The notes beneath the pieces are model-generated. The model was given only the letters and a program-made list of their open reading frames with translations, was not told the origin of the DNA and did not search any database. A program made the position numbers and the translations under genes. From an uncultured Roseibacillus sp. (lineage in GTDB: Bacteria; Verrucomicrobiota; Verrucomicrobiia; Verrucomicrobiales; Akkermansiaceae): a stretch of DNA of 49,225 bases. The stretch covers positions 1 to 49,225 of the forward strand of contig CALFBF010000082.1 in NCBI GenBank assembly GCA_937949965.1, written 5' to 3'. Of the stretch, positions 1,676-45,622 are shown in pieces (positions within the stretch are counted from its first letter, which is position 1; each line of letters starts with the position of its first letter).

Positions 1676-1682
1676 CGGAGAA

Positions 1683-3655: not shown

Positions 3656-3687
3656 GAAAAGTTTGAGGAATCTTTGAGTGAAATTGA

Positions 3688-3711: not shown

Positions 3712-3727
3712 CTTACTTTCGTTTACT

Positions 3728-4408: not shown

Positions 4409-4491
4409 AGCAAAGTGGGGCTTACGGGGAATGTGCTCTGAGGTTTCGATAATTCAAGTCGCAACCGAACTCAAGTTCAGCCTTGTGCATT

Positions 4492-5340: not shown

Positions 5341-5345
5341 CTGCG

Positions 5346-5543: not shown

Positions 5544-5548
5544 CAGTT

Positions 5549-6688
5549 CTATTCTTTCAGAATTGCCTCGTCCCAGTCTTTCCAGACCGGTTCTAGTCCA
5601 GTTTGTTCAATCTGTTTCGCAAAGTCGGCAGGGGTGCGTTGGTCGTCGATGGTGAATTGCTCGGTGGCACGAGTCGCAGTCGGCTTTTCGTCTTCTTCGA
5701 TTTCGATACGGCGTCCTTTGCGCGTGCGGTGGAGGTCGTCGCAGCCTGCTCCGGTGTAGCCGCCGGGGTCGGTAGCGCTGCCGGCAGACATGTGGGTCGG
5801 TCCCAGCGTCATCACGTTGTCGCGGAGGGGGCCAGGCTCGCGGGTGGAAACTACGATTCCAGTAGTAGGAAAGCAGAGCCGAGTGGCAGCGATGAGTTGG
5901 ACGAGCTGGCGGTCGGTGAGGTAGCGATTGGGGTCGGGGGTGTATTGGTAGTTCCCGGCGTAGGGACGCATGCGGGGGAAGGCGACGGTGAACTGGGCCT
6001 TCCAGCAATGCTTGTGCAGGTATTCGAGATGGGCCGCGAGGGCGAGGGCCTCAGTGCGCCAATCGGCGAGGCCAAAGAGAGCGCCGATGCCGATGCGTCG
6101 GAAGCCGCCTCGATAAGCGCGTTCGGGGCATTCCAGTCGCCAGTCGAAGTTTTTCTTAGGGCCGGCGGTGTGGAGCGTCTGGTAAGTCTCGCGGTGGTAG
6201 GTTTCTTGGTAGACGATGAGGCCTTCGGAGCCCGCCTTTACGAGTTCGGCATACTGGTCGTCTTCCATGGGGCCGACCTCGATTCCGATGGTGGGGAAGA
6301 GAGGGGCGAGCTGGCGCACGATGTCTTGCAGGTAGCCTTCGGAGACAAACTTGGGATGCTCCCCGGCAACGAGGAGGAGATTGCGAAAACCTTGTGCATG
6401 CAGGTGACGGGCTTCGCGGAGCACTTGTTCTGCGGTGAGGGTGGTGCGCAGGATGGGATTGTCGCGCGAGAAACCGCAGTAAGAGCAGTTGTTCACACAT
6501 TCGTTGGAGAGGTAGAGCGGTGCGAAAAGGCGGATCGTTTTTCCGAAGTGGCGGCGGGTGACTTGCGCCGATTGCCGAGCGAGAGACTCCAAGCGAGCAT
6601 CATCAGCAGGAGCGATTAAGTTCTCGAAACGTCGAAGAAGAGGCGAGCGCTTTTCGGGAAGCTCGTTGAAAACAGGCACGAAAGACAT
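5549..6688 (-). CDS. thiH: 2-iminoacetate synthase (radical SAM, ThiH)
   Basis: Encodes 379 residues of ThiH, a radical SAM enzyme that cleaves tyrosine to 2-iminoacetate (dehydroglycine) for the thiamine thiazole ring. The cluster motif is CVNNCSYCGF (Cys64, Cys68, Cys71). Other family stretches are LLVAGEHPKFV, YQETYHRETY and PRMRPYAG, with LGPTHMSAGS towards the C-terminus. First gene of the thiH-thiS-mutM operon. I looked upstream (6689-6939) for a TPP riboswitch and saw no recognisable conserved core. A 338-codon frame on the plus strand across the gene is a shadow. Very sure. Confidence 0.95.
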   Translation of the reverse strand: MSFVPVFNELPEKRSPLLRRFENLIAPADDARLESLARQSAQVTRRHFGKTIRLFAPLYLSNECVNNCSYCGFSRDNPILRTTLTAEQVLREARHLHAQGFRNLLLVAGEHPKFVSEGYLQDIVRQLAPLFPTIGIEVGPMEDDQYAELVKAGSEGLIVYQETYHRETYQTLHTAGPKKNFDWRLECPERAYRGGFRRIGIGALFGLADWRTEALALAAHLEYLHKHCWKAQFTVAFPRMRPYAGNYQYTPDPNRYLTDRQLVQLIAATRLCFPTTGIVVSTREPGPLRDNVMTLGPTHMSAGSATDPGGYTGAGCDDLHRTRKGRRIEIEEDEKPTATRATEQFTIDDQRTPADFAKQIEQTGLEPVWKDWDEAILKE

Positions 6689-10776: not shown

Positions 10777-12249
10777 CTATTGGGGATGAGTGGGCTCAAG
10801 GGTGAAAGTCTTGTCGTAGAAGGGAAGTTCTTGATCGTGCCAGCGCTTTTCTTGGGCAGGATCGTCAAACCATTGTGGTGTGGAGTGAGTTTGGGCCCAT
10901 TCACTCATCTCGGTAACCAATTGTTGTAGAATTTTGGGATGCTTCTCAGCGAGGTTGTTCTTTTCCCCTGGATCAATTTGCACATTGTAGAGCTTCCAGC
11001 CATCGAGGTCATAGTAGCTTTTCCATTGGTCTCGACGTCCTCCAACTTGATGATGGGAGCGATCTCCTTTGCTCATGCGGTGACGTAACGTGTAGATCAT
11101 TTCTCCCGGGCGAGCGTTTTTACCACTTTCGAGAAAGGGGAGCAGATTTTTACCAGCAAGTTTCTTGTCGGCAGGGATTTCTCCTCCAGCTAAGGCAGCG
11201 AAAGTAGGGTAAAAATCGAGAGAAGAAACGGGGTGAGGGTACTTGCGTGCTTGAGAGAATCCCGCTGGCCAGTGGAAAAAGAAGGGCACTCGGTAGCCTC
11301 CCTCTAGGGTGTCTCCCTTGGAGCCTCGTAAGGGATGATTGTTGCTCCCATACTCAACCTTACCGCCGTTGTCGCTTAAGAAGACGATGAGGGTGTTGTC
11401 GGCCTTCTTAGTTTTTTCGAGAGTATCAACGATACGTCCCACTCCACGGTCTACGGCGAAAATCATCCCCGCAATTGTGCGGCGATTTTCGTCGGTAATG
11501 TTAAGAAATTGAGCTTTATCTTCTTCCTTTGCTTCTAGAGGACTATGCGGCGCGTTGTAGGCGAGGAATAGGAAGAAGGGGTCCTCTTTCTGCGAAGCCT
11601 CCTTGATAAAGCGACAGGCTTCACGAGAGAGTCCGTCGGTTAGGTATTCTGTTTCTTGAACTTGTTCGCCATTGTGTTCGAGGGGGAGAAGGTAGTCGAA
11701 AATTTTCTTAGTTCCTCGCGCTTTCGCAGCATTATACTTCGCTTGATAGACTTTAGGAAAGTAACTGTGGCCGCCTCCTAGAAAACCATAGAAGTCGTCA
11801 AAACCCCTCACATTGGGATGGTAGTCTGGGGTCACTCCGAGATGCCACTTGCCGACTAGGCCGGTGTAGTAGCCGTTGTTTTGGAGCATCTTGCTGAGAA
11901 GTACCTCGTTCGTGGGAATACCGAGTTTATTATACTTTTTATATCCGCGGCTAGCAGCCGGGAGGTTGAAAGGAGTTCCGAAGCTGTGGGGATAACGTCC
12001 AGTCATCATTCCCATCCGGCTGGGACCGCAGAAGGGGTGTGGCACATAACCAGAGGTGCAATGAATTCCCTCCTCCGCTAACTTATCGAGGTGAGGAGTG
12101 CGAATATCTGAGGAGCCATTGAATCCCACATCCGCATACCCGAGATCGTCACACATAATAATGATGATGTTCGGACGAGTGGCTTCTTCATTCGTGGCGA
12201 AGAGAGAGCCGATGGCTAGTAAGGAGAGAGCGCTAAAGAGTTTTCTCAT
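10777..12249 (-). CDS. Secreted sulfatase (formylglycine type I)
   Basis: Encodes 490 residues. A short signal peptide (MRKLFSALSLLAIGSLFA) is followed by the sulfatase metal site PNIIIIMCDDLGYADVG and the modification motif FCGPSRMGMMTGRYP, in which Cys74 would become formylglycine. Further conserved parts are GKWHLG, PHSPLEA and LSDNGG. It hydrolyses sulfate esters, probably on polysaccharide fragments in the periplasm. It follows a second sulfatase (25 bp gap) on the same strand, and both are divergent from an MFS sugar porter and a GH127 enzyme, so the set probably handles one sulfated glycan. Substrate cannot be read from the sequence. Confidence 0.92.
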   Translation of the reverse strand: MRKLFSALSLLAIGSLFATNEEATRPNIIIIMCDDLGYADVGFNGSSDIRTPHLDKLAEEGIHCTSGYVPHPFCGPSRMGMMTGRYPHSFGTPFNLPAASRGYKKYNKLGIPTNEVLLSKMLQNNGYYTGLVGKWHLGVTPDYHPNVRGFDDFYGFLGGGHSYFPKVYQAKYNAAKARGTKKIFDYLLPLEHNGEQVQETEYLTDGLSREACRFIKEASQKEDPFFLFLAYNAPHSPLEAKEEDKAQFLNITDENRRTIAGMIFAVDRGVGRIVDTLEKTKKADNTLIVFLSDNGGKVEYGSNNHPLRGSKGDTLEGGYRVPFFFHWPAGFSQARKYPHPVSSLDFYPTFAALAGGEIPADKKLAGKNLLPFLESGKNARPGEMIYTLRHRMSKGDRSHHQVGGRRDQWKSYYDLDGWKLYNVQIDPGEKNNLAEKHPKILQQLVTEMSEWAQTHSTPQWFDDPAQEKRWHDQELPFYDKTFTLEPTHPQ

Positions 12250-12273
12250 TTAAGAAGGAGTTGAGTTTTTAGT

Positions 12274-13896
12274 CTAGTTGTTGTTTGGAAGAGAGCCCTG
12301 CCATCCTGCCCGGAATTGCTTTAAAAGTCGTGCAGTCAGCTCGGGTTGATCTTGAGCAATGTTCTTAGTCTCATACTTACTATTCGCGTAGTCGTAGAGT
12401 TCAACGAAGGTTGGTTCTCCTTCGGGTTGGCGCATATCCTGCCACACCATAAGGCGGTGTTGATCTGTGCGCATGGAGTAACCCATGAGATGATTTTCGA
12501 AGAGTTCTCGATCCCAAGCCTCTCCTTGCTGAGCGACGATGCCGTCTTCGACCTCTTTGATGAGTGGACCAAAGAAGGTTTCCTTCATGCCATCAGAGAG
12601 TGGAGCCGCCGCCCATTCCCGTAAGGCAGGGTTGGGGAACTGGGTGAAAGCTGCTTTTTTCCACGGAAGTTCGGGATTGGTTAGAATAGGGCGTAAGCTT
12701 GTTCCTTCGACGTGATCGGGAATCTCGATTCCTGTTAGGTCGCATACAGTGGGGTAGAGATCGACGAGTTCAGTAAGGGCATTTGTTTTCGCATTTTTAG
12801 CCCCTTTGTAGTGTTCGGGAAGCGAGATGATGAGGGGGACGCGAGCCGAGATTTCATAGTTGGTAGCTTTTCCCCAGACTCCCATTTCACCGAGGTGCCA
12901 ACCGTGGTCTCCCCAGAGGATGATGATGGTGTTTTCCCGGAGTCCATTCTCTTCGAGGGCTTCGAGAATCAATCCGACCTGAGTATCAATGTAACTCGCA
13001 CAGGCCAAGTAAGCGTGCTTCAAGGTGCGAGCTAGATCCGGCTCGATGTCTCCTTTTTTAGGGATGCCATCCCGGACTCGGAGTTCAAAGGAAGCGTGGA
13101 GACCCATAGTAGCACCACCTTCGGGAGCTGTTGGGTTCTCAGCGGCAGGAATGTCCTCTGGATCGTAGAGATCCCAGTATCTTTTGGGAGCCACAAACTC
13201 GAGATGCGGTTTGTAAAAACCCATCCCGAGGAAAAAAGGTTTTCCTTCTTCCTTGAGCTCTTTCAGCGTAGCAATGGCTACTTGGGCATTTCTACCATCT
13301 CGGTAGGTAGTATCTGGCACGTCTGCGCTCTCGTAAGCGGGGCCTTGGATGAGACCCGATCGTGCGATGCTTGTCCCATATTTTGCTTCCAACGCAATTT
13401 TGTTTTTTGCCTCGATGGCACGGTTTTCCTCAAGGGCATAAGCCACTGGAGGAGGGAGATTTACCTTCGCCTCTTTTCGGTTCCAAGAATGCTTGGGATC
13501 GGATTGTCCTTTACTATGATAAATTTTTCCCACTTGAACGGCCTCGTAACCGTGATTGATGAGATGCTGACTAAGAGTGATGATGTCGGGGTTGAGTTCG
13601 CGGAAATAGTCGGCATTTTTCACAAGGCCCAAGGTGTCCGTTCGTGCTCCACACATCAGGCTCGCCCGCGAGGGTGCGCAAATAGGTTGTTGGCAATAAG
13701 CTCGCTCAAAGAGGACTCCTTGTTTAGCTAAGGCGTCAATGTGTGGAGTGACTGCTATTTCCGAACCGTAGCAACCTAGCTCTGGGCGCAAGTCATCTAT
13801 CGCGAGGAAGAGGATGTTGGGCTTACTTGGGCTTTCTGCGTATGCTAACGAGCTGAGAAGGAAGCTACTTACGAGGCGAGTGAAAATACGAGTCAT
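12274..13896 (-). CDS. Secreted sulfatase, iduronate-2-sulfatase-like
   Basis: Encodes 540 residues when started at the ATG at 13896, which gives a good signal peptide (MTRIFTRLVSSFLLSSLAYA). The frame stays open for 152 more codons upstream, but those lie under the opposite-strand porter gene and its leader and do not look like protein. The metal site is PNILFLAIDDLRPELGCYG and the modification motif ICAPSRASLMCG (Cys73). FYKPHLEFVAPKRYWDLYD and [16 protein letters not shown] are typical of iduronate-2-sulfatase-like enzymes. First gene of a two-sulfatase operon and divergent from the MFS porter at 14105, so the 208-bp gap between them holds both promoters. Confidence 0.92.
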   Translation of the reverse strand: MTRIFTRLVSSFLLSSLAYAESPSKPNILFLAIDDLRPELGCYGSEIAVTPHIDALAKQGVLFERAYCQQPICAPSRASLMCGARTDTLGLVKNADYFRELNPDIITLSQHLINHGYEAVQVGKIYHSKGQSDPKHSWNRKEAKVNLPPPVAYALEENRAIEAKNKIALEAKYGTSIARSGLIQGPAYESADVPDTTYRDGRNAQVAIATLKELKEEGKPFFLGMGFYKPHLEFVAPKRYWDLYDPEDIPAAENPTAPEGGATMGLHASFELRVRDGIPKKGDIEPDLARTLKHAYLACASYIDTQVGLILEALEENGLRENTIIILWGDHGWHLGEMGVWGKATNYEISARVPLIISLPEHYKGAKNAKTNALTELVDLYPTVCDLTGIEIPDHVEGTSLRPILTNPELPWKKAAFTQFPNPALREWAAAPLSDGMKETFFGPLIKEVEDGIVAQQGEAWDRELFENHLMGYSMRTDQHRLMVWQDMRQPEGEPTFVELYDYANSKYETKNIAQDQPELTARLLKQFRAGWQGSLPNNN

Positions 13897-14104
13897 GGTG
13901 AGAGGAGTAAATGGCGAGTAATCCAAGAAAGCGATCATTTCTAAGAACTGCATTTTGCGAGAGGAACTGCAAGGTAGAATGTGTTTTCCTCTGGGTATCA
14001 GGGAGGTAATTGTTGCAGACTTGCTCATTACTTTAGCGCTGACTGTTCTTGAGAGTCTGATTTTCGCTATTGGGTGGTAGCAAGTAACGAGGAAGATAAT
14101 CGAG

Positions 14105-15697
14105 ATGAGTAGCCAAAATAAGAGTGCCTTTTTCTTCGCCACCATAGTGGCTATGGGTGGCTTTTTATTTGGGCTCGATGCCGTTCTGATTTCGGGAACA
14201 TTGGATTTTCTCAAAGAGAAGTTTACTCTTTCTGCAATTGAGGTCGGTACCGCAGCCAGCGCCCCTGCTCTCGGCGTGCTCGTTGCTCTCCCCTTTGCCG
14301 GCTTCATTAGCGATTGCTTCGGTCGTAAAAAGGCGGTGATGTTAGTTGCCATTCTCTACTTGGTATCTGCCTTAGGGTCCGCCTTTGCCCCGACCTTCGA
14401 GATGCTTGTCGCTTTTCGATTTTTAGGAGGCTTAGCCTTTAGTTCGATCACGTTAGCTTCGATATATATTGGCGAAATTTCACCTCCCTCTTGGCGAGGA
14501 AAGATGGTTTCCATGATCCAGATTAATATCGTGGTCGGCCTTTCCGGGGCTTATTTCGCGAATTACTACATACTGCAGGTTGCGAAATCTGATGCGACTT
14601 GGGTGGAACAATTCGCCCTCGATAGCGAGACTTGGCGCTGGATGTTAGGGATGGAAGTTCCATTCGCTCTCTTATGGCTTTTCCTCCTATTCCGCATTCC
14701 AGAGAGCCCTTACTGGCTCGTAATTCAGAATCGAGTTGAAGAGGCCAAAGAAGTGTTAGGTAAGATTTTGCCAGAGGAGAAAGTCTCCCGGCAGCTCGCC
14801 GAAATGCAGACAAGTTTCGCTAACAGTGGAGGTTCAGAAGGTAAAAGAATCGCTTCCCAAGTGAAGGAAATCTTTAGCAAGCCGATGCGGTTTACGCTCA
14901 TCATCGCGTTGACCATTGCCACCGTACAACAAGCGACCGGAATCAATGCCATCCTAGTCTATGCTCCAACTGTCTTCCAACAACTTGGAGGCGGGGAAGA
15001 TGCCGCCTTTTCGCAGGCTGTGTGGGTGGGGTTGACCGCTCTGGGTTTCACCATTTTTGGTCTTCTGTTAGTGGATAAGATCGGGCGTCGTCCGCTCGTT
15101 ATTGGGGGGCTGATCTGGATTGTATTGAGCTTAGGGCTCAGTTCCTACGCTTTCAAGCAGGCGCGTTACACTTTGAGTGCGGAGGCCTTTACCGAACTTA
15201 CGGAGTCTGTCGCTTCGGGAGATCTCGAGTTCGATGGCGTTGAAAAGCTACAATCTCTCGTCACTTTTGAGCACGGGAGTGACATTCAGTTCAAGCAGGC
15301 GCTCAAGAAACTCCTTGGCAAAAAAGAGGCGGCGAAACATCAGAACATGTTAGTGGAGAAGTCGCTGAATATGAACGCGACTTTGGTCCTCGTTTGTATC
15401 CTCAGTGTGGTGGCAGCATTCCACATCTCCATTGGGCCATTGATGTGGGTCCTCTTCTCCGAAATTTTCCCAATTTCAGTGCGTGGATTGGCAATTCCCT
15501 TCTGCGCGATTGTGAGCAGTGTTGTGAACTTTCTCGTGCAGCAGTTCTTTCCTTGGCAAGTGGAGAACCTGGGGATGAGTTCCATTTTCTTAACTTACGG
15601 TATCGTAGTGGGTCTTGGCTTGCTCGTTCTCATTTTTACCCTCAAGGAAACTAAAAACATGAGCATCGAAGAAATCGAATCTGCTCTGCGTTCCTAG
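14105..15697 (+). CDS. MFS sugar porter
   Basis: Encodes 530 residues of the sugar-porter branch of the major facilitator superfamily, with about 12 membrane segments. Landmarks are GGFLFGLDAVLISGTLDF in TM1, DCFGRKKAVM in the loop 2-3, IPESPYWLV after TM6, QQATGINAILVYAPTVFQQ in TM7 and VDKIGRRPLVI in loop 8-9. An insertion of about 75 soluble residues between TM9 and TM10 makes it longer than the usual 460-480. It is followed 27 bp later by the GH127 gene, so the pair probably imports and processes one sugar, perhaps L-arabinose or an arabinoside. Confidence 0.9.
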   Translation: MSSQNKSAFFFATIVAMGGFLFGLDAVLISGTLDFLKEKFTLSAIEVGTAASAPALGVLVALPFAGFISDCFGRKKAVMLVAILYLVSALGSAFAPTFEMLVAFRFLGGLAFSSITLASIYIGEISPPSWRGKMVSMIQINIVVGLSGAYFANYYILQVAKSDATWVEQFALDSETWRWMLGMEVPFALLWLFLLFRIPESPYWLVIQNRVEEAKEVLGKILPEEKVSRQLAEMQTSFANSGGSEGKRIASQVKEIFSKPMRFTLIIALTIATVQQATGINAILVYAPTVFQQLGGGEDAAFSQAVWVGLTALGFTIFGLLLVDKIGRRPLVIGGLIWIVLSLGLSSYAFKQARYTLSAEAFTELTESVASGDLEFDGVEKLQSLVTFEHGSDIQFKQALKKLLGKKEAAKHQNMLVEKSLNMNATLVLVCILSVVAAFHISIGPLMWVLFSEIFPISVRGLAIPFCAIVSSVVNFLVQQFFPWQVENLGMSSIFLTYGIVVGLGLLVLIFTLKETKNMSIEEIESALRS

Positions 15698-15724
15698 AGT
15701 AAAAATTCTTTTCTGTTAGATAAA

Positions 15725-17716
15725 ATGATGGTGACCCCTACCAAAGAGAACCGTTCGCGGGCTGAGATGGATCATTCCGCTAGTCCTTTTGTGAAGTTGA
15801 GATCGCTCGATATTGGCGATTGTCAGTGGACGGATGGTTTTTGGGCTGAAAAGACCAAACAATGTGCCGAAGTAATGGTGCCTTATATGGGGAGCTTGCT
15901 CAAAGGGGACATTGGACACGGGTTGAATAACTTCAAAATCGCTGCTGGGCTTAAAGGGGGAGATCATCAGGGCGAGTTCTGGCACGATGCTGATTTTTTC
16001 AAGTGGATGGAGTCGGCTTGTTACATCTACGGTCTTAATCAGGACGAAAAGATTCTCGTAGAGTTGGATGATATTATTGCGGTTATCGCTCAAGCGCAGG
16101 AGGAAGATGGTTACCTCCATGCTTACATTCAGTCCCACGGCATCGAGCACTTCTCGAATCGGAAGTATCACGAGATGTATAATTGCGGACACCTATACAC
16201 CGCTGCCTGTATCCATCATCGCCTCACCGGACAGTCCAACTTTCTCAAAATTGCGCTTAAGAATGCAAATTTGTTAGAAAAAACCTTCAACCCGTGCCCC
16301 CCGAAGTTGAAGCGCTTTGGTTTTAATCAGACGCAGATTATGGGCTTAGTGGAGCTTTATCGTCTGGTCGGTGATAAGCGTTATCTCAAGCTGGCCGAAG
16401 TCTTTATTAACAATCGCGGCCAGTCCGAAATGGTGCATGACTCCACGACTATTGGCTATCCCATCGGGGACATGGTGCAGGAACGAGTGCCCTTACGCGA
16501 GGAGACTGAGGCGGTCGGTCACGCCGTCTTAGCCCTTTATTACTACGCGGGTGCTGCTGATGTCTATGCCGAGACAGGTGAGCAGGCTCTCATCGATGCC
16601 CTCGACCGTTTATGGGAGAATGTGACCCAGCGGAAGATGTATGTCACTGGTGCGGTGGGGCAATCGCATTGGGGTGCTTCATCGCGACGTGACCCTATTG
16701 AGGAGGGATTCATTGACGGATATATGATGCCCAACATGACGGCCTACAACGAGACTTGTGCCAATATTTGTAACGCCATGTTTAGTCACCGCATGTTGGG
16801 GATTAAGGGGGAATCCAAGTATGCAGACGTCATGGAGCTGGTTCTGTACAATAGTAGTCTCTCGGGGATTAGCCTGTGTGGGAAAAAGTATTACTATGCG
16901 AATCCTCTGCGAAAGGTGCGCGGGGCGCGAGATTACGAGAGTATGAATACGGAGTCTCCTGATCGGGAGCCTTATCTTTACTGCTTCTGCTGCCCACCCA
17001 ATATCGTGCGCACTGTAGCCAAGGTTTCCGGTTGGGCTTATAGCCGTGCCGAGAATGGCATCAGTGTGAATCTCTATGGCAGTAATAAACTTACGACAAA
17101 ATTAGTAGATGGAACAACTCTCCGGTTGACTCAATCTACTCACTACCCGTGGGATGGCGCGGTGGCTCTGACCGTCGAGGAATGCAAGGCCGAGGCGTTT
17201 GAGATTCTTCTTCGAATCCCAGAATGGGCGACTGAGAGCGCCGTGACGATAAACGGCGAAGACCTCGGTATCGAAGCTGTCCCGGGACAGTTTGTTAGAA
17301 TCGAGCGACAGTGGGTTGCCGGCGATACCATCGCCCTCGCTATGCCCATGCCGGTGCGCTTCATTGAGGGACATCCTCGCATTGAGGAGGTTCGTAATCA
17401 GGTTGCGGTCAAGCGAGGCCCAGTCGTCTATTGTATCGAGTCACCCGACCTTCCCGCAGAGGCGAGTATTCTTGATGTTTACCTAGACGGAGACGCTCAG
17501 CTGACGTTTGTCGAAGACTCTAAGTCCTTACCAGGTATCCCAGCCATTCAGGCTGAATTACAGCTTCGCACCGATGCGCATCGGAGCGAGGGCATGTATC
17601 AAGCCCTGACCAAACCTAGCTGGCGACCGTATGCTTCACAATTCGTTCCCTACTATGCATGGAGTAATAGGGGAGATTGTGAAATGACCGTCTTCCTGCC
17701 CATTAGGTGGAAGTAG
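15725..17716 (+). CDS. GH127-type beta-L-arabinofuranosidase
   Basis: Encodes 663 residues of the GH127 (former DUF1680) family, which removes beta-L-arabinofuranose. An (alpha/alpha)6-barrel starts with GDCQWTDGFWAEK, and HDADFFKWMESACY follows. The zinc/thiolate centre is visible: YNETCANICN (Glu343, Cys345) and YCFCCPPN (Cys420, Cys422, Cys423), matching the Glu-Cys-Cys-Cys set of the characterised enzyme, with Cys of the CCPP motif as nucleophile. No signal peptide, so probably cytoplasmic, acting on imported oligosaccharides. Start is uncertain: ATG at 15725, the next ATG at 15728, or ATG 15767 at residue 15. Some GH127-like enzymes act on other sugars. Confidence 0.88.
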   Translation: MMVTPTKENRSRAEMDHSASPFVKLRSLDIGDCQWTDGFWAEKTKQCAEVMVPYMGSLLKGDIGHGLNNFKIAAGLKGGDHQGEFWHDADFFKWMESACYIYGLNQDEKILVELDDIIAVIAQAQEEDGYLHAYIQSHGIEHFSNRKYHEMYNCGHLYTAACIHHRLTGQSNFLKIALKNANLLEKTFNPCPPKLKRFGFNQTQIMGLVELYRLVGDKRYLKLAEVFINNRGQSEMVHDSTTIGYPIGDMVQERVPLREETEAVGHAVLALYYYAGAADVYAETGEQALIDALDRLWENVTQRKMYVTGAVGQSHWGASSRRDPIEEGFIDGYMMPNMTAYNETCANICNAMFSHRMLGIKGESKYADVMELVLYNSSLSGISLCGKKYYYANPLRKVRGARDYESMNTESPDREPYLYCFCCPPNIVRTVAKVSGWAYSRAENGISVNLYGSNKLTTKLVDGTTLRLTQSTHYPWDGAVALTVEECKAEAFEILLRIPEWATESAVTINGEDLGIEAVPGQFVRIERQWVAGDTIALAMPMPVRFIEGHPRIEEVRNQVAVKRGPVVYCIESPDLPAEASILDVYLDGDAQLTFVEDSKSLPGIPAIQAELQLRTDAHRSEGMYQALTKPSWRPYASQFVPYYAWSNRGDCEMTVFLPIRWK

Positions 17717-31537: not shown

Positions 31538-33376
31538 ATGCGTCATCTCCACAGTATTTTGATTTCATTGGGTTCTGCTTTGATGAGTGCAGTAGCAGCG
31601 CCGAATATTCTTTGGATTATTACCGACGACCAGCGAGCGGACTCGGTGGCCGCCTATAACCGAGCGATGACGGGGCAGGACGAGAGCGCTTTGGGTTATG
31701 TGGAATCTCCCTTTGCCGATCAGTTAGCGGCAGAAGGGGTTCTTTTTACACATGCGAACTCGAACTCACCGGCCTGCGGTCCTTCCCGCGGTTCCATGTT
31801 TTCGGGCCGTTACCCTTTCCGCAATGGGCATTACGCTTTTGAGGTCACTCACCAAAGCCCCGACTTTGTGAGACCGATGATTCAGAGAACCCTGCAGACT
31901 AAGGGATATACCACGGCGAGCTTTGGTAAGTCGGACCACTATATTTATCGTTGGGGGCCGGGGCAGGGGTTTCATCTCGTGGGAGACTTTGATCACCGAG
32001 TGCACTTCAAGAGCGATTTGCAAAAGAATGGTTGGGGGGACCTCTTTGTCGCTCCTAAGTATGGGAAGAAGGCGGATGGCACTTCGGGTATCGTTGGGCA
32101 GCAAGAGACGGTCGTTTTTCCAGACGGACGTCAGGAAAGTTACTTTATTAAGAAAACGGGAGAAACCGTTTCAGAGAAAGACAAGAAGCGACGCGCGCAC
32201 TTTGACCAAAAGTTTGATCTTCTCCGTGCTCATTCGCGTTCGAATGCTGACCTCATCATCGGAGGACGTAACCCTAAGCCCGCAGGTGAGACGGTGGATG
32301 CTTACATCGTGAAGGAGATGACGAATTATCTCTCTTCTGCTAACAAAAAATTTCAGACTTTAGCTGGAGAATCCAGCAAGGGTCCGAGTAGTAAGCAGCC
32401 TTTGTTTGTTCAGCTGGGCTTCCACCTTCCACACACTCCCGTCCTGCCGCCACAGTCGTTTCGTGCTCGCTTCCATGAGAAAGATTACACCCTTCCGGCC
32501 TTTGATGAGGCGGAGCTGGAGCGTTTTCCTCCTCAATTGCAGCATCTCTACCGGGCGATGAAGATTGCCGAACTCAGTGAGGAGGAGAAGCAGACCGCGA
32601 TCCGGGATTATTATGCTTTTTGTGCCTATGGGGATTCTTTGTTAGGTGAGTCGGTTCAAGCCTTTAAGGACTACTGCGAGCGCCACCAGCAAGAGTATCT
32701 CATCGTCTACACCATCGGCGATCACGGCTGGCATCTTGGCGAACAGGGAATCATGGCTAAGTTTGGGCCATGGAAGCAATCGGTTGCTAATGCTGCTATT
32801 CTTGTTTCTTCCGATAAGGAAAAGGTGCCCCCCGGAAAGGTGGTTTCTGAAATGGTAGAGTTCGTCGACTTTGCTCCCACCTTTTTACAAGCCGCTGGAG
32901 CTAATCTGGAGGTTGAGAAATACGATTACCTCGATGGTTACAGCCTTTTTGATGTGTTAGAAGGCAAGCAAGAAAGCCGAGACTACGTATTAGGGGAGTG
33001 CAGCTTGGTCTGCGGACATCGGGCCTACCTTCATAGTGAACGTTTTCGATTCTCGATGCGGACGCGGCAGGGAGGGGCATTGAAGCCGGCGAATGTGGGG
33101 AAAAAGTTGACTTGGGCAGTAGATGTTCCCTTGGAGGAAGTCGATCCGGCTCTCTTCGATCTCGAAAGTGATCCCCTAGAGCAAAAGAATGTAGCCCTTG
33201 ACCCAAAGTATCGAGAACTCAGCGAATTTTTACGAGCAAAGTTAGCGCGTATCGTCTTGGGTGATCGTCGAGTCGAGTGTGATTGGGCCCAGGCCAACTC
33301 TTATCATGTGAGCGAATTTGCACTCGGTGCTGACGATAAAAAATTGCGGATTCCTGAGGGGGTTCTCCCACGCTAA
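31538..33376 (+). CDS. Secreted sulfatase
   Basis: Encodes 612 residues. Signal peptide MRHLHSILISLGSALMSAVA, then the metal site PNILWIITDDQRADSV and the formylglycine motif SPACGPSRGSMFSGRYP (Cys80). [20 protein letters not shown] is the distal metal and substrate region. It is longer than average because of an insertion of about 90 residues (around residues 165-255) with many Lys and Asp. It starts 78 bp after the VWA-protein gene and stands 47 bp upstream of a sulfatase pseudogene. The substrate is unknown; the match to sulfatase is certain. Confidence 0.92.
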   Translation: MRHLHSILISLGSALMSAVAAPNILWIITDDQRADSVAAYNRAMTGQDESALGYVESPFADQLAAEGVLFTHANSNSPACGPSRGSMFSGRYPFRNGHYAFEVTHQSPDFVRPMIQRTLQTKGYTTASFGKSDHYIYRWGPGQGFHLVGDFDHRVHFKSDLQKNGWGDLFVAPKYGKKADGTSGIVGQQETVVFPDGRQESYFIKKTGETVSEKDKKRRAHFDQKFDLLRAHSRSNADLIIGGRNPKPAGETVDAYIVKEMTNYLSSANKKFQTLAGESSKGPSSKQPLFVQLGFHLPHTPVLPPQSFRARFHEKDYTLPAFDEAELERFPPQLQHLYRAMKIAELSEEEKQTAIRDYYAFCAYGDSLLGESVQAFKDYCERHQQEYLIVYTIGDHGWHLGEQGIMAKFGPWKQSVANAAILVSSDKEKVPPGKVVSEMVEFVDFAPTFLQAAGANLEVEKYDYLDGYSLFDVLEGKQESRDYVLGECSLVCGHRAYLHSERFRFSMRTRQGGALKPANVGKKLTWAVDVPLEEVDPALFDLESDPLEQKNVALDPKYRELSEFLRAKLARIVLGDRRVECDWAQANSYHVSEFALGADDKKLRIPEGVLPR

Positions 33377-35544: not shown

Positions 35545-36951
35545 ATGAAACGTCCCTTGCTTGCTTGGTGCTCTCTTGTTCTTTCCATTTGGGCGGAGAA
35601 GCCAAATGTTCTCTTAATTTGTGTTGATGACTTGAGGCCCGAGTTGGCTTGTTATGGGCAGGAGTATATTAAGTCTCCTCATATTGATGCCTTAGCAGAG
35701 CGAGGAGTGCTATTTGAGCATCACTTTGTGCAAGCACCTACTTGTGGTGCCTCTCGTTACGCTCTTCTAACAGGGCAATATGGACTTACTGGTAATCAGG
35801 CTTTGTTCAAGCGTGCGCAGAAGATGGTGGAGGGAGAAAAAGTAGCTCCGGTCTTTCCTGAATGGTTTCGCGAAGCAGGTTATACTACAGTAGCCGTAGG
35901 CAAGGTATCTCATCATCCAGGAGGTCTAGGTGGTGAGGATTGGGTTGATGAGTCCGCTGTGGAGATGCCTGGTGCTTGGGATCGCAATCTTCTCCCCGCA
36001 GGGCCATGGCAGCACCCTCGTGGGTGGATGCATGGACTTGCCAATGGGGAGATGCGAGTGAAACTTAATACGCGCTTAGATGTCTACCAAGCCCTTGAAG
36101 GTGATGATTCGATTTATCCTGATGGAGTTGTGATTCCAACTGCAGTGGAAGAGTTAGAGACTTTAGCGGCAGCAGAAGAGCCCTTCTTCTTGGCGGTAGG
36201 GATTTTGCGCCCCCACTTACCCTTTGGTGCTCCCAAGAAGTATCTTGACCTGTATGAGGGCGTTGACTTACCCGCTATTCCTCATCCTGAGAAGCCTACT
36301 GGAAAGACTACATGGCATCGTTCAGGTGAGTTTCGTCGTTACAATCTCTGGGATAAAGATCCAAACACTGATCGTGAATTTGCAGATGAGGTGCGCCGTC
36401 ACTATGCTGCTTGTGTGAGCTATGCGGATGCTATGGTGGGGAAGATTCTTGCTGCTTTAGAAAAATCGGGCGAGAAGGATAATACCATCATCGTTCTCTG
36501 GGGAGATCATGGTTGGCATCTTGGAGAGCATGCCGTTTGGGGGAAGCATACTCTTTTTGAGGAGTCCCTTCACTCACCGTTGATTATCGTTGATCCAGAG
36601 TCGGCGGTGGGTAAACAACGAGTGGCGGCTGTGGTCCAGACTGTCGATATCTTCCCCACGCTAGTAGAGTTGGCAGGCCTTTCTGGAGAGGGTAAATGGC
36701 ATGGGAGCTCCTTAGTGCCATTTCTCAAAGACAGCGCGACCCAGGATACGGGACACCGCTACGCATACAGTTATCATGGTGGGAGTACTACCATCCGGAG
36801 TGCCGATCATCGCCTTGTGAAGCATCGTGATGGTTCTTTCGAACTCTACGACCGAAAGAGCGACGAAAGTGAGACCAAAAATATCGCAGTGGAAAATCCC
36901 GAAATTGTCGCGGCTCTCTTGAAGGCTATGGCTGAACTCAAAAAGCTTTAA
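35545..36951 (+). CDS. Secreted sulfatase, iduronate-2-sulfatase-like, with a CxAxR motif
   Basis: Encodes 468 residues. Short signal peptide ([17 protein letters not shown]), metal site [19 protein letters not shown], and modification motif [16 protein letters not shown] (Cys67). The motif has Ala in place of the common Pro (Cys-Gly-Ala-Ser-Arg), which the formylglycine-generating pathway also accepts. [20 protein letters not shown] and [20 protein letters not shown] match iduronate-2-sulfatase-like enzymes, as does the sulfatase at 12274-13896. It follows the winged-helix regulator at 35085. Call certain, substrate unknown. Confidence 0.92.
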
Positions 36952-39227: not shown

Positions 39228-39671
39228 CTACCCAAAGGAGTAGGCAGGATCAAGGCAACGCGCTTGCTCGCTTTTTGTCCAAGCCGTAATCGTCATTCCG
39301 TAGAACAACTTCACCTCACGGGCGAGATGAGTGTAGTGAGAAAAGCCCAGTAGAGAGACGATCTGGTCTGCTCCATAGCCCATCCGAAGGTAGCGTTGCG
39401 CAAGGATGATGCGGTGGCGACGGAAGTATTCCTTGGGGCCTGAGCCTGTCGCTTTTTTAATGGCGTTTTCCAGTTCTTGGACTTGGGCATCAATAGCAGA
39501 GGCCACTGCTGCCACCTTAAACTGGTTTTGCTCGGCTAGAGTCATGATGTCTTGACCATCTTCAGTCATCAAACGATGCCCTTCGCGGCTGAGTTTGAGA
39601 GCTGCCTTTCGTTGTCCCTTTTTTTGCATTGTGCATATAGACTGCGCAATGGTTTGGACCTTGTCCATCAT
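39228..39671 (-). CDS. Small AraC-type DNA-binding protein
   Basis: Encodes 147 residues. Residues 1-75 are an alpha-helical region of unknown family, rich in Lys/Gln (TMQKKGQRKAALKLSREGHR). The C-terminal 65 form the AraC/XylS helix-turn-helix half (EYFRRHRIILAQRYLRMGYG, then LLGFSHYTHLAREVKLFYGM), with the second HTH clearly visible. It lacks the sugar-binding domain of classic AraC proteins. It is divergent from the PhcB-like operon (243-bp A/T-rich gap), so it may be its regulator or its output. That link is only positional. Confidence 0.75.
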   Translation of the reverse strand: MMDKVQTIAQSICTMQKKGQRKAALKLSREGHRLMTEDGQDIMTLAEQNQFKVAAVASAIDAQVQELENAIKKATGSGPKEYFRRHRIILAQRYLRMGYGADQIVSLLGFSHYTHLAREVKLFYGMTITAWTKSEQARCLDPAYSFG

Positions 39672-39711: not shown

Positions 39712-39914
39712 TTCCCGTTTTTTAGAAGAAGGGCTTCAATCTTCCGAAGATAGTAAAAAATTTTGAACTTTCTGTGTCTTTAGATTTCGAAGCGTATTGA
39801 GATGATAATTCAAAAAGATGAGAAAATTTGAGTTTTAAGATAGAATTCAAGATCAGGATCTTTGCGAATTTTTTATCAAGAAGTTAGCGAATTAACATAA
39901 GAAAAAATAAAACA

Positions 39915-41447
39915 ATGTCACTTACACGCACGGGAAAAAGTATAAACCAAAGTTCGATTAAGTTAATTACGGGAAGAGGGAAGCGTATTCAAGCTCAGGT
40001 GAAGGAGATTCGGGTAGACTCAGTTACCTTTGAAGTACTAGGTTTGGACAGTGTTCTTCAAATTTCGGAGATTTTGAGGGATGTTGAAATTGAGATTGAA
40101 GGAAAACTGGCCTATCGAGGTGAACTATCGGTTTCAGGACTTGTTCCTCTTGGAGTTATGGTTGTGTGCGAAGCACGCCTTTCAGGCCCTTGGTTACTCG
40201 ACTCATTTGGATCAGAAGAGTTTTTAGAAAACATAGCGAAGGATCTTGAAGAGCATACGGTTCAGTGGGCAGAGAGTCAGGAAATTCGACCACTTTTCCG
40301 CTCAGTAGTAGCAGATTTGGAGACTTATTTATCTGGGCTCGAAAGTTGGTGTGACCGAGTGGAATGCGGGGCTTTGTCCAATCGTGAGGATAGCTCCGAA
40401 AGAGAGCGTAGAATCTTGGCGGAATTAGGGCCTATTGTCAGTTTGGAGATCAAATCGCATTTTGCTGATTATGAACGAGTGGTTTCGAAATTAGATGCCG
40501 AAAATAGGCATATACACCGAAATCATCTTATGAAGGCAGCGCATCGTTTTATCTTACAGTCACCCTTCAGTTATCGCTGTTTTACTAAACCTCTGGGCTA
40601 TGCTGGAGATTATGGAATGGTGAATTTGATGCTTGGTAGCCCTTACCAAGGAGCCACTTTGTTTGGAAAATTGTTGAACTACGCGTTTATGCAGACTGGG
40701 CCTGTAGTAGCGCATCGGAACCGAATCGATTATTTGGTGGGCACCTTGGGTGATGTTGCAAAGAAACGAGCTGATCGTGGATTGCGGACCCGAATTCTAA
40801 ACCTTGGTTGTGGACCTGCTGAGGAAGTGCAGCGGTTTATTGAATCGAATTCAGTGAGTGAGTTCTGTGATTTTGAACTCCTGGACTTTAATCCTGAAAC
40901 ATTACGTTATACCGCTGGGCAGTTAGATTTAGCGAAGCAGAAAGGGGAGCGAGAAGTGAATACAAAATTAATCGAAGAATCGGTTCAGAATTTCCTCAAG
41001 CAAGCTTCACGTGGTGAGAGTTACCCTAAAGAAAGCTATGATTTAGTCTATTGTGCAGGGTTATTCGATTATTTACAGCAACGTTTTTGCGCTAAATTGA
41101 CTGCGGTCATGTTTGATCTGGTTAAGAATGGGGGCAAGGCAGTTGTTACCAATGTGTCACGTGACAACACCATTCCAGCCGTGATGTCTGACTTTCTTGA
41201 ATGGACTCTCATTGAGCGAACACAAGAAGAAATGATGGATCTCGTTCCCAAAAATCATTTAAGTGTTCTTAAAGAATTGAAATCTGATTCGACTCATATT
41301 AATCTCTTTTTAGAGCTTACTAAATCAGAGGCTCTTCATCGTGATGTGGAACCGACTCACCAAAGTGATACAGCCGAAGGCCATCGACCCGAAGTTTTTG
41401 GAACGCTTCGAGGCCGAAGAGGCTATCGCGAGAGTTCCCAATTATAA
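39915..41447 (+). CDS. PilZ-like domain plus SAM methyltransferase (PhcB-like)
   Basis: Encodes 510 residues. Residues 15-95 look like a PilZ-type barrel (RGKRIQAQVKEIRVDSVTFE, GLDSVLQISEIL). A helical linker follows, then a class I methyltransferase from about residue 205: GYAGDYGMVNLM, THE SAM motif ILNLGCGPAEEVQ (294-306), and YDLVYCAGLFDYL. This arrangement is seen in proteins annotated as 3-hydroxypalmitic acid methyl ester biosynthesis (PhcB family), which methylate 3-hydroxy fatty acids into quorum signals. The next two genes (kinase, receiver) fit the phc operon. The last 35 or so residues are read in a second frame over the start of the kinase gene and do not look like family sequence. 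The signal molecule itself is inferred only. Confidence 0.65.
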   Translation: MSLTRTGKSINQSSIKLITGRGKRIQAQVKEIRVDSVTFEVLGLDSVLQISEILRDVEIEIEGKLAYRGELSVSGLVPLGVMVVCEARLSGPWLLDSFGSEEFLENIAKDLEEHTVQWAESQEIRPLFRSVVADLETYLSGLESWCDRVECGALSNREDSSERERRILAELGPIVSLEIKSHFADYERVVSKLDAENRHIHRNHLMKAAHRFILQSPFSYRCFTKPLGYAGDYGMVNLMLGSPYQGATLFGKLLNYAFMQTGPVVAHRNRIDYLVGTLGDVAKKRADRGLRTRILNLGCGPAEEVQRFIESNSVSEFCDFELLDFNPETLRYTAGQLDLAKQKGEREVNTKLIEESVQNFLKQASRGESYPKESYDLVYCAGLFDYLQQRFCAKLTAVMFDLVKNGGKAVVTNVSRDNTIPAVMSDFLEWTLIERTQEEMMDLVPKNHLSVLKELKSDSTHINLFLELTKSEALHRDVEPTHQSDTAEGHRPEVFGTLRGRRGYRESSQL

Positions 41448-44058
41448 GATCGCAAGCGGATTAGGAGCTATCTTTATTGCTGCAGGTTCAGTAATGGACC
41501 GGCTAGCATTTCCAGAGGACTGGAAGATTTTGGTCCTTTTACGGGCCGAGTGCGCTTTCACCTTATTGTTACTTTACGCGCTTTTGTGCACGAAGTGGGG
41601 TGAAAAACGACATCTTCTCATCGGACATTTCATCGAGGGCTCGCTTATTCTGAGTATTCTGGCCATGATCGGTAATACGGGGGGGGCGACCTCTCCCTAT
41701 TACGCTGGACTGTGTTTGGTCATGGTTGGAGCGAGTCTTTTATTGAGGTGGTCTCTTTGGCACGGAGTCTTTAATGTCGCGTTTTGTTGCGGGTGTTACA
41801 GTCTTTTGATTTTCATGATTCCTACGGAACCTTCTAGCGAAGTGGGGAATCCTGTCGCGGTATCGAGTTTCTTTTTGTATGTTACGGGATTTTTCACGGC
41901 GGCGGGTACTTATTTCTTGTACGAACTCCGTCTTAATGAATTCAGTCTGCGAGAGAAGTTGACTGCAGAGCGGAAGAGGCTCGAAAAGATCAATCGTAAG
42001 TTGCAAGCAACTGATCAAACGAAAACGAATTTCTTCGCCAATGTGAGCCACGAATTGAGAACTCCGCTTACCTTAATTTTAGGTCCGTTAGATCAACTGG
42101 CGTCTTACGAGCCTATTCAGGGAAATGCGAAGTTTCGTTCGTTAGTTTCTTCGATGGAAGATAACGGACTTCGCTTGCTCAGGCTGATTAATGAGCTTCT
42201 TGATCTCATCCGGCTCGATAGTGGTGAGCAAATTGTTAAAACCGAATTAACTCGTATTGATGATATTGTCTCTTCCATTCATCGTTCTTTGCTGCCAACT
42301 GCAGAGGAGAAAGGGCTCAAGCTCGAGCTGAAGGTCGCAGAGGCTCCTAAGGGGACTTACACCGTAGATCGGATGAAGTTTGAGAAAATTCTCATTAACT
42401 TAGCGACTAATGCTCTTAAATTCACTCCTCCAGGCGGGCGGGTTTGTTTAGCGGTTCGGGAGACGAGTGAGGGTTTTGCGGAGTTCATGGTCTCTGACAC
42501 GGGAGAGGGAATGTCTAAGGACGAGCGTGATAATGTTTTCCGACGTTTTTGGCAGGCTGATACGAGTAGCAAACGGAAGCATCGTGGAGCGGGAATCGGC
42601 CTTTCTCTGGTGAAGAGTTTGGTTGATTTGTTAGATGGTAATGTCTCGGTTAACAGCACTTTAGGAAAAGGAACTACTTTTCTAGTAAATCTCCCTGTTG
42701 GGAAGGCTGCCGCAGAAGGCTCGCTCAAGAAGGTAAAGGTCAATAAGCTTGACGTGATTGAAGAACTCAATCGCAAAGCACAGCTGAGCGGAGACCGGAT
42801 CGTCTCTCGCAAAGTGCCTAAGGTGCGCCCTGATGAGGTAGCTCTGAATAAAGGGAAAAAACCGGTGGTTCTGGTCGCTGAGGATGAGCCTGATGTGCGC
42901 AACTTGATCGTATCTCAGTTAGGAGGTTATCAATTACTGGTTGCTGAAGATGGAGAGCAGGCTTTTCAACTAGCGGCGCAGTATCAACCTGATCTTATTT
43001 TATTAGACTGGATGATGCCGGTTCGTGATGGTCTCGAAGTTTGTCGAATGATTCGCGCTACTGCTTCCTTGAACCGTGTCCCTATCATCATGCTTACTGC
43101 TAGAATTGATGAGCGTTCCAAGATTCTGGCTTTGGAAGCTGGGGCCAATGACTTTCTCACTAAGCCTTTCGTGCCGACAGAACTGCGCCTGCGAATCTCA
43201 CACTTGCTTAATGCGGGTCGGTTCGAGCGTGAAGTGGTTCAGAAATCCGAAGAGTTAGGAGCTGCTTTGGAAGAGCTCAAGGAGTCTGAGTCTATGCTCG
43301 TACAGGCCGAGAAGCTTTCTTCCTTAGGCCAGATGAGCGCGGGGATCATTCATGAGATCAATAATCCTCTCAACTACGCTAAGACTAATCTTTATTCTTT
43401 ACGCACCTTTTCCAAGTTACTCCCTGGCGAAGAGAAGGATGATTTCCTTGAAGTGACTTCGGATGTGGAAGAAGGGCTCGAAAGGGTCGTCCAAATTGTG
43501 AAAGACCTCCGTAGTTTTGCGGTTAAGGATAAGACCCAGTATAATGATGTGAATCTTGCAAGCGTTGTGGCAGCTAGTTCTCGATTGCTCGGCAACCGAT
43601 TAACGAACGTCAACTTTGATGCAGCGGTACCAGACCATGTTCACATCAGTGGTAATTCTAATCAGCTCTGCCAAGTTTTCGTGAACTTCCTCCAGAACTC
43701 TTTGGATGCTTTGAAGGACGCGGATCGTGAAAACGAGAAAGGTCGTATCAAAGTTGATTTGACCCAGGATGACGAGTGGATCTCGCTGCACTTCCGTGAC
43801 AATGGTTGCGGAATTTCCAAAGAGGCTCAGCAAAAAATATTCGACCCTTTTTATAGTAGTAAAGAGGTTGGTCAAGGGATGGGTCTTGGGTTAAGTATTT
43901 GTTATCGCATTTTGGAGCAGCATGGAGTCAAGATAGAACTCGAAAGTGAAGTGGGGAAAGGAACTCACTTCACTCTTAATTTTCCAATCATTCTAGACGA
44001 CCGGGAGTTCGAAAAATCTCTTAAAACTAATTTCGCTAAAAAATCTTTAAAACATTAA
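41344..44058 (+). CDS. Hybrid sensor kinase: TM region, kinase, receiver, second kinase (PhcS-PhcR fusion-like)
   Basis: Encodes 904 residues from ATG 41344. About six membrane segments fill residues 35-195. A first kinase has HisKA FFANVSHELRTP (His near 236) and HATPase NALKFTPPGGRV, DTGEGMS and RGAGIGLSLVKSLVDLLDG. A receiver domain follows (VLVAEDEPDVRNL; Asp near 555 in LILLDWMMPVRDG; Lys in FLTKPF). Then a second kinase: HisKA LGQMSAGIIHEINNPLNYAK (His near 670) and HATPase FRDNGCGISKEAQQ, GLGLSI. In Ralstonia the membrane kinase PhcS and the receiver-kinase PhcR are separate; here the order matches both joined. The start overlaps the methyltransferase gene by 104 bp, and the stop is 1 bp from the next gene. 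Confidence 0.85.
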   Translation: MWNRLTKVIQPKAIDPKFLERFEAEEAIARVPNYKIASGLGAIFIAAGSVMDRLAFPEDWKILVLLRAECAFTLLLLYALLCTKWGEKRHLLIGHFIEGSLILSILAMIGNTGGATSPYYAGLCLVMVGASLLLRWSLWHGVFNVAFCCGCYSLLIFMIPTEPSSEVGNPVAVSSFFLYVTGFFTAAGTYFLYELRLNEFSLREKLTAERKRLEKINRKLQATDQTKTNFFANVSHELRTPLTLILGPLDQLASYEPIQGNAKFRSLVSSMEDNGLRLLRLINELLDLIRLDSGEQIVKTELTRIDDIVSSIHRSLLPTAEEKGLKLELKVAEAPKGTYTVDRMKFEKILINLATNALKFTPPGGRVCLAVRETSEGFAEFMVSDTGEGMSKDERDNVFRRFWQADTSSKRKHRGAGIGLSLVKSLVDLLDGNVSVNSTLGKGTTFLVNLPVGKAAAEGSLKKVKVNKLDVIEELNRKAQLSGDRIVSRKVPKVRPDEVALNKGKKPVVLVAEDEPDVRNLIVSQLGGYQLLVAEDGEQAFQLAAQYQPDLILLDWMMPVRDGLEVCRMIRATASLNRVPIIMLTARIDERSKILALEAGANDFLTKPFVPTELRLRISHLLNAGRFEREVVQKSEELGAALEELKESESMLVQAEKLSSLGQMSAGIIHEINNPLNYAKTNLYSLRTFSKLLPGEEKDDFLEVTSDVEEGLERVVQIVKDLRSFAVKDKTQYNDVNLASVVAASSRLLGNRLTNVNFDAAVPDHVHISGNSNQLCQVFVNFLQNSLDALKDADRENEKGRIKVDLTQDDEWISLHFRDNGCGISKEAQQKIFDPFYSSKEVGQGMGLGLSICYRILEQHGVKIELESEVGKGTHFTLNFPIILDDREFEKSLKTNFAKKSLKH

Positions 44059-44059
44059 C

Positions 44060-45208
44060 ATGAGTGACAACAACGTAGTCCCACCAGCAGGTAATAACTA
44101 TTACATTCTCTTTGTCGATGATGAGGAGAAAACACGGAAAGCCTTCCTTCGACTTTTCCAAGATGAATTCAAGATTCTCTTGGCTGGAGATGGAATGGAA
44201 GGCTTTGAAATCTTTCAGGAGAGAAAGGACGAGATCGGAGTCATTGTTACCGATCAGAAGATGCCTCGTGAGACTGGTGTTAAGTTTCTCTCTAGAGTTG
44301 CAGAGGTTGATAGTGACATTGTGCGCATCCTCTCCACTGCTTATGCGGAATTAGACGCTGCTGTTGCAGGAGTGAACGAGGGTGGTATTTATCGCTACGT
44401 GACCAAGCCATGGGATGTGCCTGAGCTAGAGATTACTCTTCGACGTGCGATGGAGCTGTTCACCTTGCGCAAACAATCTGTTAGCGAAAGTAATTCAGGT
44501 GGTCTTGATGTTGATCAATTGCTTCTGAATCAAAACGTTACGAACTTGGCCTTCTCGCAAGCAATTGCCACCGATGGGATGCCAGTCTTTATGCGTGCAG
44601 GGAGTGTCTTCCTAGGAATGTTAGGACGCAAGGGTCTTGGCCGTGAAGAAGGGGTGAATTGGACCACGCGCTATCTGGCGCAGAGCCAGTTCTTTAAAGA
44701 TGCCTTCCGAGAGTCCAAGGAAATATTAAGTGGGCAAGGTGAGCTTGACTGGTCGCGGACAGCTCCGCCGGCTGCAGTGATTCAAGCAGCGGTGATTGGT
44801 TGCCAGAGGATTGAACTCCAATCGAGTGGAAGTGAGTCTAGTATCTGGCCTGGTCCTGCCCCTTCTCTTTCTGAGATTCTGCGTCCGCTGATGGTGGCCT
44901 TTTCGGCCATGGTCGTGCAGATTCCGGGAGGGACTTGTAGAGTTGTTAGTAACTTTAATACCGTCGATTTTCAGTTTTCAGGTTATCCCCTCGAGAACGG
45001 TCAACACCAGTTGGCGGTGAGTCCAGATACAAATATGGTCTTAGGTGAGTTGTTACGCGCTTGTATCCTTATCGAAGCCAGCGGGGGTCGTTTGAGTTTG
45101 TTCAAGAGGGATGAAGGTCTCACCATTCGACTCGGTTTTGAGAAGGATGCTCCCTCTGATGATGCCGGTCTGGCTGCGGTAGAACAGCTCACTTCTGCAA
45201 ATAGCTAG
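44060..45208 (+). CDS. Response regulator with a long C-terminal domain (PhcQ-like)
   Basis: Encodes 382 residues. Residues 14-125 are a full receiver domain: acidic pair Asp20/Asp21, phosphoacceptor Asp65 (VTDQKMP), Thr93 and Lys116 (VTKPW). The remaining 250 residues have no DNA-binding motif; their last part (NMVLGELLRACILIEASGGR, then LSLFKRDEGLTIRLGF) resembles a degenerate histidine-kinase ATPase domain. A receiver protein of this size without DNA-binding output, next to a PhcB-like methyltransferase and a PhcS/R-like kinase, fits PhcQ. It starts 1 bp after the kinase stop, so translation is coupled. Confidence 0.75.
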   Translation: MSDNNVVPPAGNNYYILFVDDEEKTRKAFLRLFQDEFKILLAGDGMEGFEIFQERKDEIGVIVTDQKMPRETGVKFLSRVAEVDSDIVRILSTAYAELDAAVAGVNEGGIYRYVTKPWDVPELEITLRRAMELFTLRKQSVSESNSGGLDVDQLLLNQNVTNLAFSQAIATDGMPVFMRAGSVFLGMLGRKGLGREEGVNWTTRYLAQSQFFKDAFRESKEILSGQGELDWSRTAPPAAVIQAAVIGCQRIELQSSGSESSIWPGPAPSLSEILRPLMVAFSAMVVQIPGGTCRVVSNFNTVDFQFSGYPLENGQHQLAVSPDTNMVLGELLRACILIEASGGRLSLFKRDEGLTIRLGFEKDAPSDDAGLAAVEQLTSANS

Positions 45209-45238: not shown

Positions 45239-45622
45239 ATGATTAAGTTCGTCTATTGTGTGCGGAAGAAAGAAGGTGCGTCGGAGGAGGAGTTTTATCG
45301 TTACTGGAAAGAAAATCACGGCCCATTAGTGAAGAGTTTCTCGGAAACAATGGGTTCGTTGAAATACGTCCAAAGCCACACCATCGACACTGTGATGAAC
45401 GATGTCGGGCGCGAAGTGCGTGGTATGAGACCGGCTTACGACGGAATTACAGAAGTCTGGTTTGAGTCCGAAGAGGCGCTCAACGCGATGTTGCAAACCG
45501 ACAAGGGCAAAGCCGCGAACAAGGCTCTCATCGAGGACGAGGCCCGTTTTTGCCATTTTGCGGAGTGCTCGGTTTTTCTAACAAAGGAACACGTGATCTT
45601 TGATCATATTGAGCATCGATGA
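45239..45622 (+). CDS. EthD-domain protein
   Basis: Encodes 127 residues. MIKFVYCVRKKEGASEEEFYR followed at once by WKENHGPLVKSF is the EthD/dimeric alpha-beta barrel pattern, with ITEVWFESEEAL in the later strand. Such small ferredoxin-like proteins occur as components of degradation or oxidase systems; some are polyketide- or fatty-acid-modifying, most are uncharacterised. It lies 30 bp after the PhcQ-like gene and may be in the same operon, which would make it a candidate for signal processing or degradation. That is inference from position alone. Confidence 0.75.
   Translation: MIKFVYCVRKKEGASEEEFYRYWKENHGPLVKSFSETMGSLKYVQSHTIDTVMNDVGREVRGMRPAYDGITEVWFESEEALNAMLQTDKGKAANKALIEDEARFCHFAECSVFLTKEHVIFDHIEHR

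Follow-up and report, generated by a model that had tools for sequence, protein, structure and literature searches.

A probable Phc-like cell-density signalling operon in Roseibacillus and other Verrucomicrobiota

Genes at the locus

The window analysed here is a 49,225-nucleotide stretch of DNA from an uncultured Roseibacillus sp. (contig CALFBF010000082.1 of assembly GCA_937949965.1), in which genes for a methyltransferase, a hybrid membrane histidine kinase and a receiver protein follow one another on the forward strand (Table 1). The original prediction had placed these genes in tight packing, and open reading frames were found at exactly those coordinates: the kinase gene overlaps the methyltransferase gene by about 104 bp, and 1 bp separates the kinase stop from the start of the receiver-protein gene.

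Table 1. Features of the operon and its flanks, in window coordinates
Feature	Position	Strand	Description
Small AraC-type HTH protein	39228-39671	-	147 aa, PF12833 E 4e-12, divergent from the operon
Conserved non-coding block	39758-39771	+	AAATTTTGAACTTT (consensus AWATTTTGAACTTT), between the AraC-type gene and the methyltransferase gene; candidate regulatory site
Methyltransferase	39915-41447	+	PhcB-like class I SAM methyltransferase, 510 aa, proposed signal synthase
Kinase	41341-44058	+	hybrid membrane histidine kinase; GTG 41341 or ATG 41344 start
Kinase domains	sensor aa 1-215, HK1 (H237), receiver aa 510-619, HK2 (H671)		from Pfam, catalytic boxes and ortholog alignment
Multi-helix membrane sensor domain	41341-41985	+	common to PhcS-like kinases; proposed signal receptor
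HK2, HEINNP type	43258-43995	+	counterpart of the PhcS kinase domain
Receiver protein	44060-45208	+	PhcQ-like: receiver plus C-terminal domain
EthD-family protein	45239-45622	+	accessory, PF07110 E 1e-19

The methyltransferase, matched by Methyltransf_31 of Pfam (E 9.5e-7), consists of an N-terminal domain (~aa 1-190), a catalytic domain (~aa 200-470) and a genus-specific C-terminal tail, which is the part that overlaps the kinase gene. The two motifs named in the original prediction, GYAGDY and LGCGPAEE, lie at aa 228 and, as LNLGCGPAEE, at aa 295, and the motifs GYAGDY, LGCGPA, LLDF and YCAGLFDYL are invariant across 22 aligned relatives. Six predicted strands raised the suspicion that the N-terminus may be a PilZ domain, but no member matches Pfam PilZ at E 1. 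No close solved structure was found, and AlphaFold2, supplied with two-sequence alignments, modelled both this enzyme and the receiver protein poorly (pLDDT 38 and 41).

The kinase has the predicted composition, with HisKA and HATPase each matched twice by Pfam and a receiver in between; the catalytic boxes of both kinase cores and the Asp of the receiver are intact. The third protein, likewise as expected, is a receiver with an intact D65 followed by about 240 aa for which a Pfam search returned no match; it combines a receiver and a C-terminal part with no DNA-binding domain, as PhcQ does. The gene on the opposite strand encodes an AraC-type protein, in agreement with the prediction, and the protein carries no sensor domain. 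The downstream EthD-like gene is confined to operon-bearing genomes: it was detected in 6 of 58 relatives, in each case within ~6 kb of the operon on the same contig.

Elsewhere in the window, positions 10777-17716, 31538-33376 and 35545-36951 hold sulfatases, a sugar transporter and a GH127 beta-L-arabinofuranosidase (sulfatases at 10777-14352 and 31538-33376, with 35545-36951 recognised as a sulfatase by sight), which fits a degrader of sulfated polysaccharides.

Conservation and variant architectures

The nearest named relative is Roseibacillus persicicus KCTC 12988, a cultured member of Verrucomicrobiota whose enzyme is 62% identical; it was the sole match when genome contigs were scanned with one protein. 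The methyltransferase was present in 22 of the 58 relatives and, phylum-wide, in 22 of 387 genomes. Both within the order and phylum-wide, most genomes with the methyltransferase have the genes arranged as methyltransferase, sensor-HK1-REC-HK2 kinase and receiver protein, indicating that the layout is not due to chance; it is kept in about 30 genomes, across families.

Several genomes depart from this arrangement. G336 (L085) shows the layout of PhcB-PhcS-PhcR: besides the methyltransferase, it has a sensor-HK2 kinase that is unfused (464 aa) and a REC-HK protein encoded by an open frame of 423 aa. Genomes of f7, f9 and f17 carry two receiver proteins 3' of the kinase. PhcR-like REC-HK genes adjoin unfused sensor kinases in seven loci (L085, L093-L096, L099 and L100). 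A single in-frame stop in G175 (L079, 7562-10303) divides the hybrid kinase into sensor-HK1 and REC-HK2, representing either a real split or a broken gene. In G046 and G049 (L093 and L094), the neighbours of a short divergent methyltransferase (323 aa) are a REC-HK protein and a PhcS-like kinase that is unfused and has the same sensor as the operon kinase; these loci may represent a second signalling channel within these genomes.

Outside the phylum, the Rhizobium and Roseateles relatives are short, distantly related enzymes with no kinase linked to them, and none was found among the viral contigs searched. A distant methyltransferase on a Pseudanabaena plasmid (L049, 6013-8632) lies beside a histidine kinase and an opposite-strand receiver gene, which may point to a broader association of such enzymes with kinases among cyanobacteria.

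Relationship to Phc systems

In the plasmid collection searched, the only full-length relative of the methyltransferase was encoded by Paraburkholderia graminis PHS1, whose plasmid carries the nearest operon found beyond Verrucomicrobiota (CUJ91_RS33675-33690, L048, in the order MT-HK-REC-RR). This operon differs from the window operon in that its kinase contains the sensor and one kinase only and in having two receiver proteins (134 and 344 aa). Its phc-like nature is suggested by landmarks published for Ralstonia, namely PhcB Arg22, PhcQ Arg154 and PhcS Leu161 (PMC6989110) and PhcS His230 (PMC11960443). The P. graminis proteins have R22 for PhcB Arg22, R157 for PhcQ R154 and H233 for PhcS His230, with no leucine in the kinase at the index of Leu161, and the starts of phcB and phcS are ~1417 bp apart in Ralstonia (computed from the mutation coordinates in Table 1 of PMC6989110) versus 1408 bp in P. 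graminis.

The window methyltransferase is homologous over nearly its full length to this R22-bearing, PhcB-like enzyme, the comparison being with Paraburkholderia only. The two share 33.6% identity over 89% of the query, within the range of 31-44% for the verrucomicrobial enzymes, and similarity is stronger in the catalytic domain (43%, E 8e-71) than in the N-terminal domain (E 4e-12). The sensor aligned with the N-terminus of the P. graminis kinase at E 6e-7 in pairwise comparison and at E 4e-35 with a verrucomicrobial profile, for which the best of 2000 shuffles reached E 0.1. In BLASTP searches, the P. graminis PhcS-like kinase matched HK2 (E 9e-45) far better than HK1 (E 4e-9), and the kinase-core tree also paired HK2 with that kinase. 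Sensor and HK2 are thus those of a PhcS-type membrane kinase, the inserted HK1 and receiver being the difference. As HK2 rather than HK1 is of the PhcS type, the hybrid kinase is best described as PhcS-like with an HK1-REC insertion rather than as PhcS joined to PhcR; either HK1-REC was inserted behind the sensor or it was lost from the unfused forms.

The receiver of the third protein is 39% identical to the P. graminis RR (E 5e-29). PhcQ has been described as a receiver plus an uncharacterised C-terminus (PMC6989110), and the C-terminal profile of the verrucomicrobial family aligned along its entire length with the kinase portion of REC-HK relatives (hhalign probability 97.3, E 2e-11). These REC-HK relatives themselves align with HK2 (E 7e-34), and unrelated controls gave no match to the C-terminal profile. 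Since the C-terminus of the window group alone gave no significant match to REC-HK, the signal needing the wider alignment, the C-terminus is regarded only as a probable degenerate histidine kinase (pseudokinase). The strand-helix-hairpin-helix-hairpin order of the weak AlphaFold model is compatible with an ATPase domain without lid, which is only suggestive.

In trees of the methyltransferase, HK2 and the receiver, the P. graminis proteins consistently grouped with the same verrucomicrobial families (support 99/97, 98/91 and 94/86, respectively, the last being moderate and below the starred level). The congruence of the three trees suggests exchange between Verrucomicrobiota and betaproteobacteria, which could have proceeded in either direction and is a lead drawn from one sampled betaproteobacterial operon.

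These results also bear on the idea that a generic methyltransferase stands by chance beside an unrelated two-component system. Receiver and kinase domains are common, and the best NCBIfam matches are unrelated hybrid kinases. Neither Pfam nor NCBIfam contains a Phc model, which weighs against the Phc-like reading. Chance is nevertheless contradicted by the recurring order, the PhcS-like sensor beside the enzyme and the congruent trees, and is considered extremely improbable.

Homology with Phc-type signalling is well supported, as compared through one P. graminis plasmid operon and not with the Ralstonia proteins directly. Like the phcBSRQ and phcA system of Ralstonia and Cupriavidus, the verrucomicrobial operon unites a methyltransferase, a membrane sensor kinase and a DNA-binding-free receiver protein in the same order. 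In contrast, its sensor kinase has an extra HK1-receiver part with no separate PhcR, and its cluster has an AraC-type HTH gene with no linked LysR-type PhcA. The original assignment as the gene set of phcBSRQ holds in so far as methyltransferase, sensor, terminal kinase and receiver are homologous to those of the betaproteobacterial phc-like operon; it fails in that the window operon has no separate PhcR (receiver plus kinase) gene and that the hybrid kinase is no simple PhcS-PhcR fusion. The predicted absence of a linked phcA was confirmed for the window, with four LysR matches elsewhere in the genome. The system likely works like Phc, but it is not a member of the canonical phcBSRQ-PhcA system, since searches for a separate PhcR and for a linked PhcA found neither. 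The Lqs/Cqs systems (LqsA-LqsS-LqsR) resemble it in joining a lipid-type signal, a membrane kinase and a receiver protein in one cluster, but LqsA is a pyridoxal-phosphate enzyme making hydroxyketones and is unrelated to methyltransferases (PMC10653808).

Co-occurrence of synthase and sensor

All 22 methyltransferase-positive relatives carry the sensor, which was found in 25 relatives altogether (hypergeometric P 4e-13, uncorrected for kinship). Sensor and receiver protein occur without the methyltransferase in G002, G035 and G036. In G002, which belongs to the same genus, AraC-type gene, kinase and receiver protein are kept on one contig (L088, G002:C170:60000-73000, 1520-6160) with argH still adjoining, and the same three genes persist on one contig in G035 (L089, G035:C8:206000-219000, 1845-6384); the methyltransferase was found neither in the locus nor in the genome of either. 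In G036, the genes are a sensor kinase and REC-HK only. Such a one-way dependence, with the enzyme never lacking the sensor but some sensors lacking the enzyme, is what would be expected of signal makers and listeners.

The same genomes weigh on an intracellular sensory module, in which the methyltransferase would modify a protein or the kinase itself, as in CheR-like adaptation, with no diffusible signal. Weak matches to CheR were also obtained for 17 of 22 members (best E 2e-4), and no export or signal-turnover gene is obvious. However, kinase, receiver and AraC-type genes persisting without the enzyme in G002 and G035 would be odd if the enzyme tuned that kinase and natural for a receiver of a foreign signal, and the role known for the betaproteobacterial homologues involves a secreted ester (PMC8578825), making an intracellular role rather unlikely.

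Proposed signalling route and output

The operon is thus read, with reasonable though not full confidence, as a Phc-like cell-density signalling system working as follows. The methyltransferase would produce a diffusible, probably fatty-acid-derived methyl ester, which would be detected by the membrane sensor of the hybrid kinase. Phosphate would pass from HK1 to the internal receiver, on to HK2 and finally to the receiver of the PhcQ-like protein. Having no DNA-binding domain, this protein would contact a transcription factor, for which the small AraC-type HTH protein is the most likely candidate; there is precedent for PhcQ acting by contact with a transcription factor (PMC13320629). The AraC-type protein would then control the operon, perhaps via the block at 39758-39771, together with other genes.

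The AraC-type gene was found in the cluster, divergent or directly downstream and with one profile match each, in 17 of 17 testable same-family operon loci, the contig of G030 being too short to tell. No profile match was obtained in the operon clusters of the other families examined. When whole relatives were searched, homologues were nearly confined to operon clusters, with G023 carrying the gene without the operon. The suggestion that this protein provides the output is thereby strengthened in its linkage to the operon, its regulatory role being a putative one. In G000, G001 and G003, all belonging to the genus, the 14-base block had a single exact match, always in the same intergenic region, and there was no exact match in G002, a genome without the methyltransferase. 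Promoter and terminator scans performed no better than shuffles.

The chemistry of the signal leaves room for a second reading, a minority one that deserves serious attention, in which the same kind of operon uses a signal other than a 3-hydroxy fatty acid methyl ester, made by esterifying another acid or methylating another small molecule and still sensed by the linked kinase. The modest identity to the P. graminis enzyme noted above allows for this, and Cupriavidus metallidurans has phcBSRQ with no extractable 3-OH PAME, suggesting a structural variant (PMC2864759). The invariance of the catalytic-domain motifs across the family and the co-evolution of sensor and enzyme argue against it.

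Implications

The one survey of phc gene clusters found in the literature was limited to Proteobacteria and described their distribution as restricted and betaproteobacterial (PMC10653808); neither Phc-type nor other described quorum sensing in Verrucomicrobiota was found in the open-access literature. The Phc-like operon described here suggests that the chemical language of Phc reaches well beyond the bacteria where it was first described. A broader evolutionary account can be offered as a tentative proposal that falls short of even odds: Phc-type signalling would be old and diverse in Verrucomicrobiota, with several architectures and receiver-only genomes; the betaproteobacterial phc operon would have been exchanged horizontally from or with Verrucomicrobiota; the C-terminus of PhcQ would be a degenerate kinase derived from a PhcR-like protein; and the output would have been swapped between LysR and AraC types. 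If so, receiver-only genomes could listen without speaking. Natural genomes with the receptor and without the synthase make cheating or eavesdropping testable, and a homologous, architecturally varied family in a second phylum provides a comparative handle on Phc, through which the roles of PhcR and PhcQ, the way in which the sensor reads the ester and the replacement of the output factor may be addressed.
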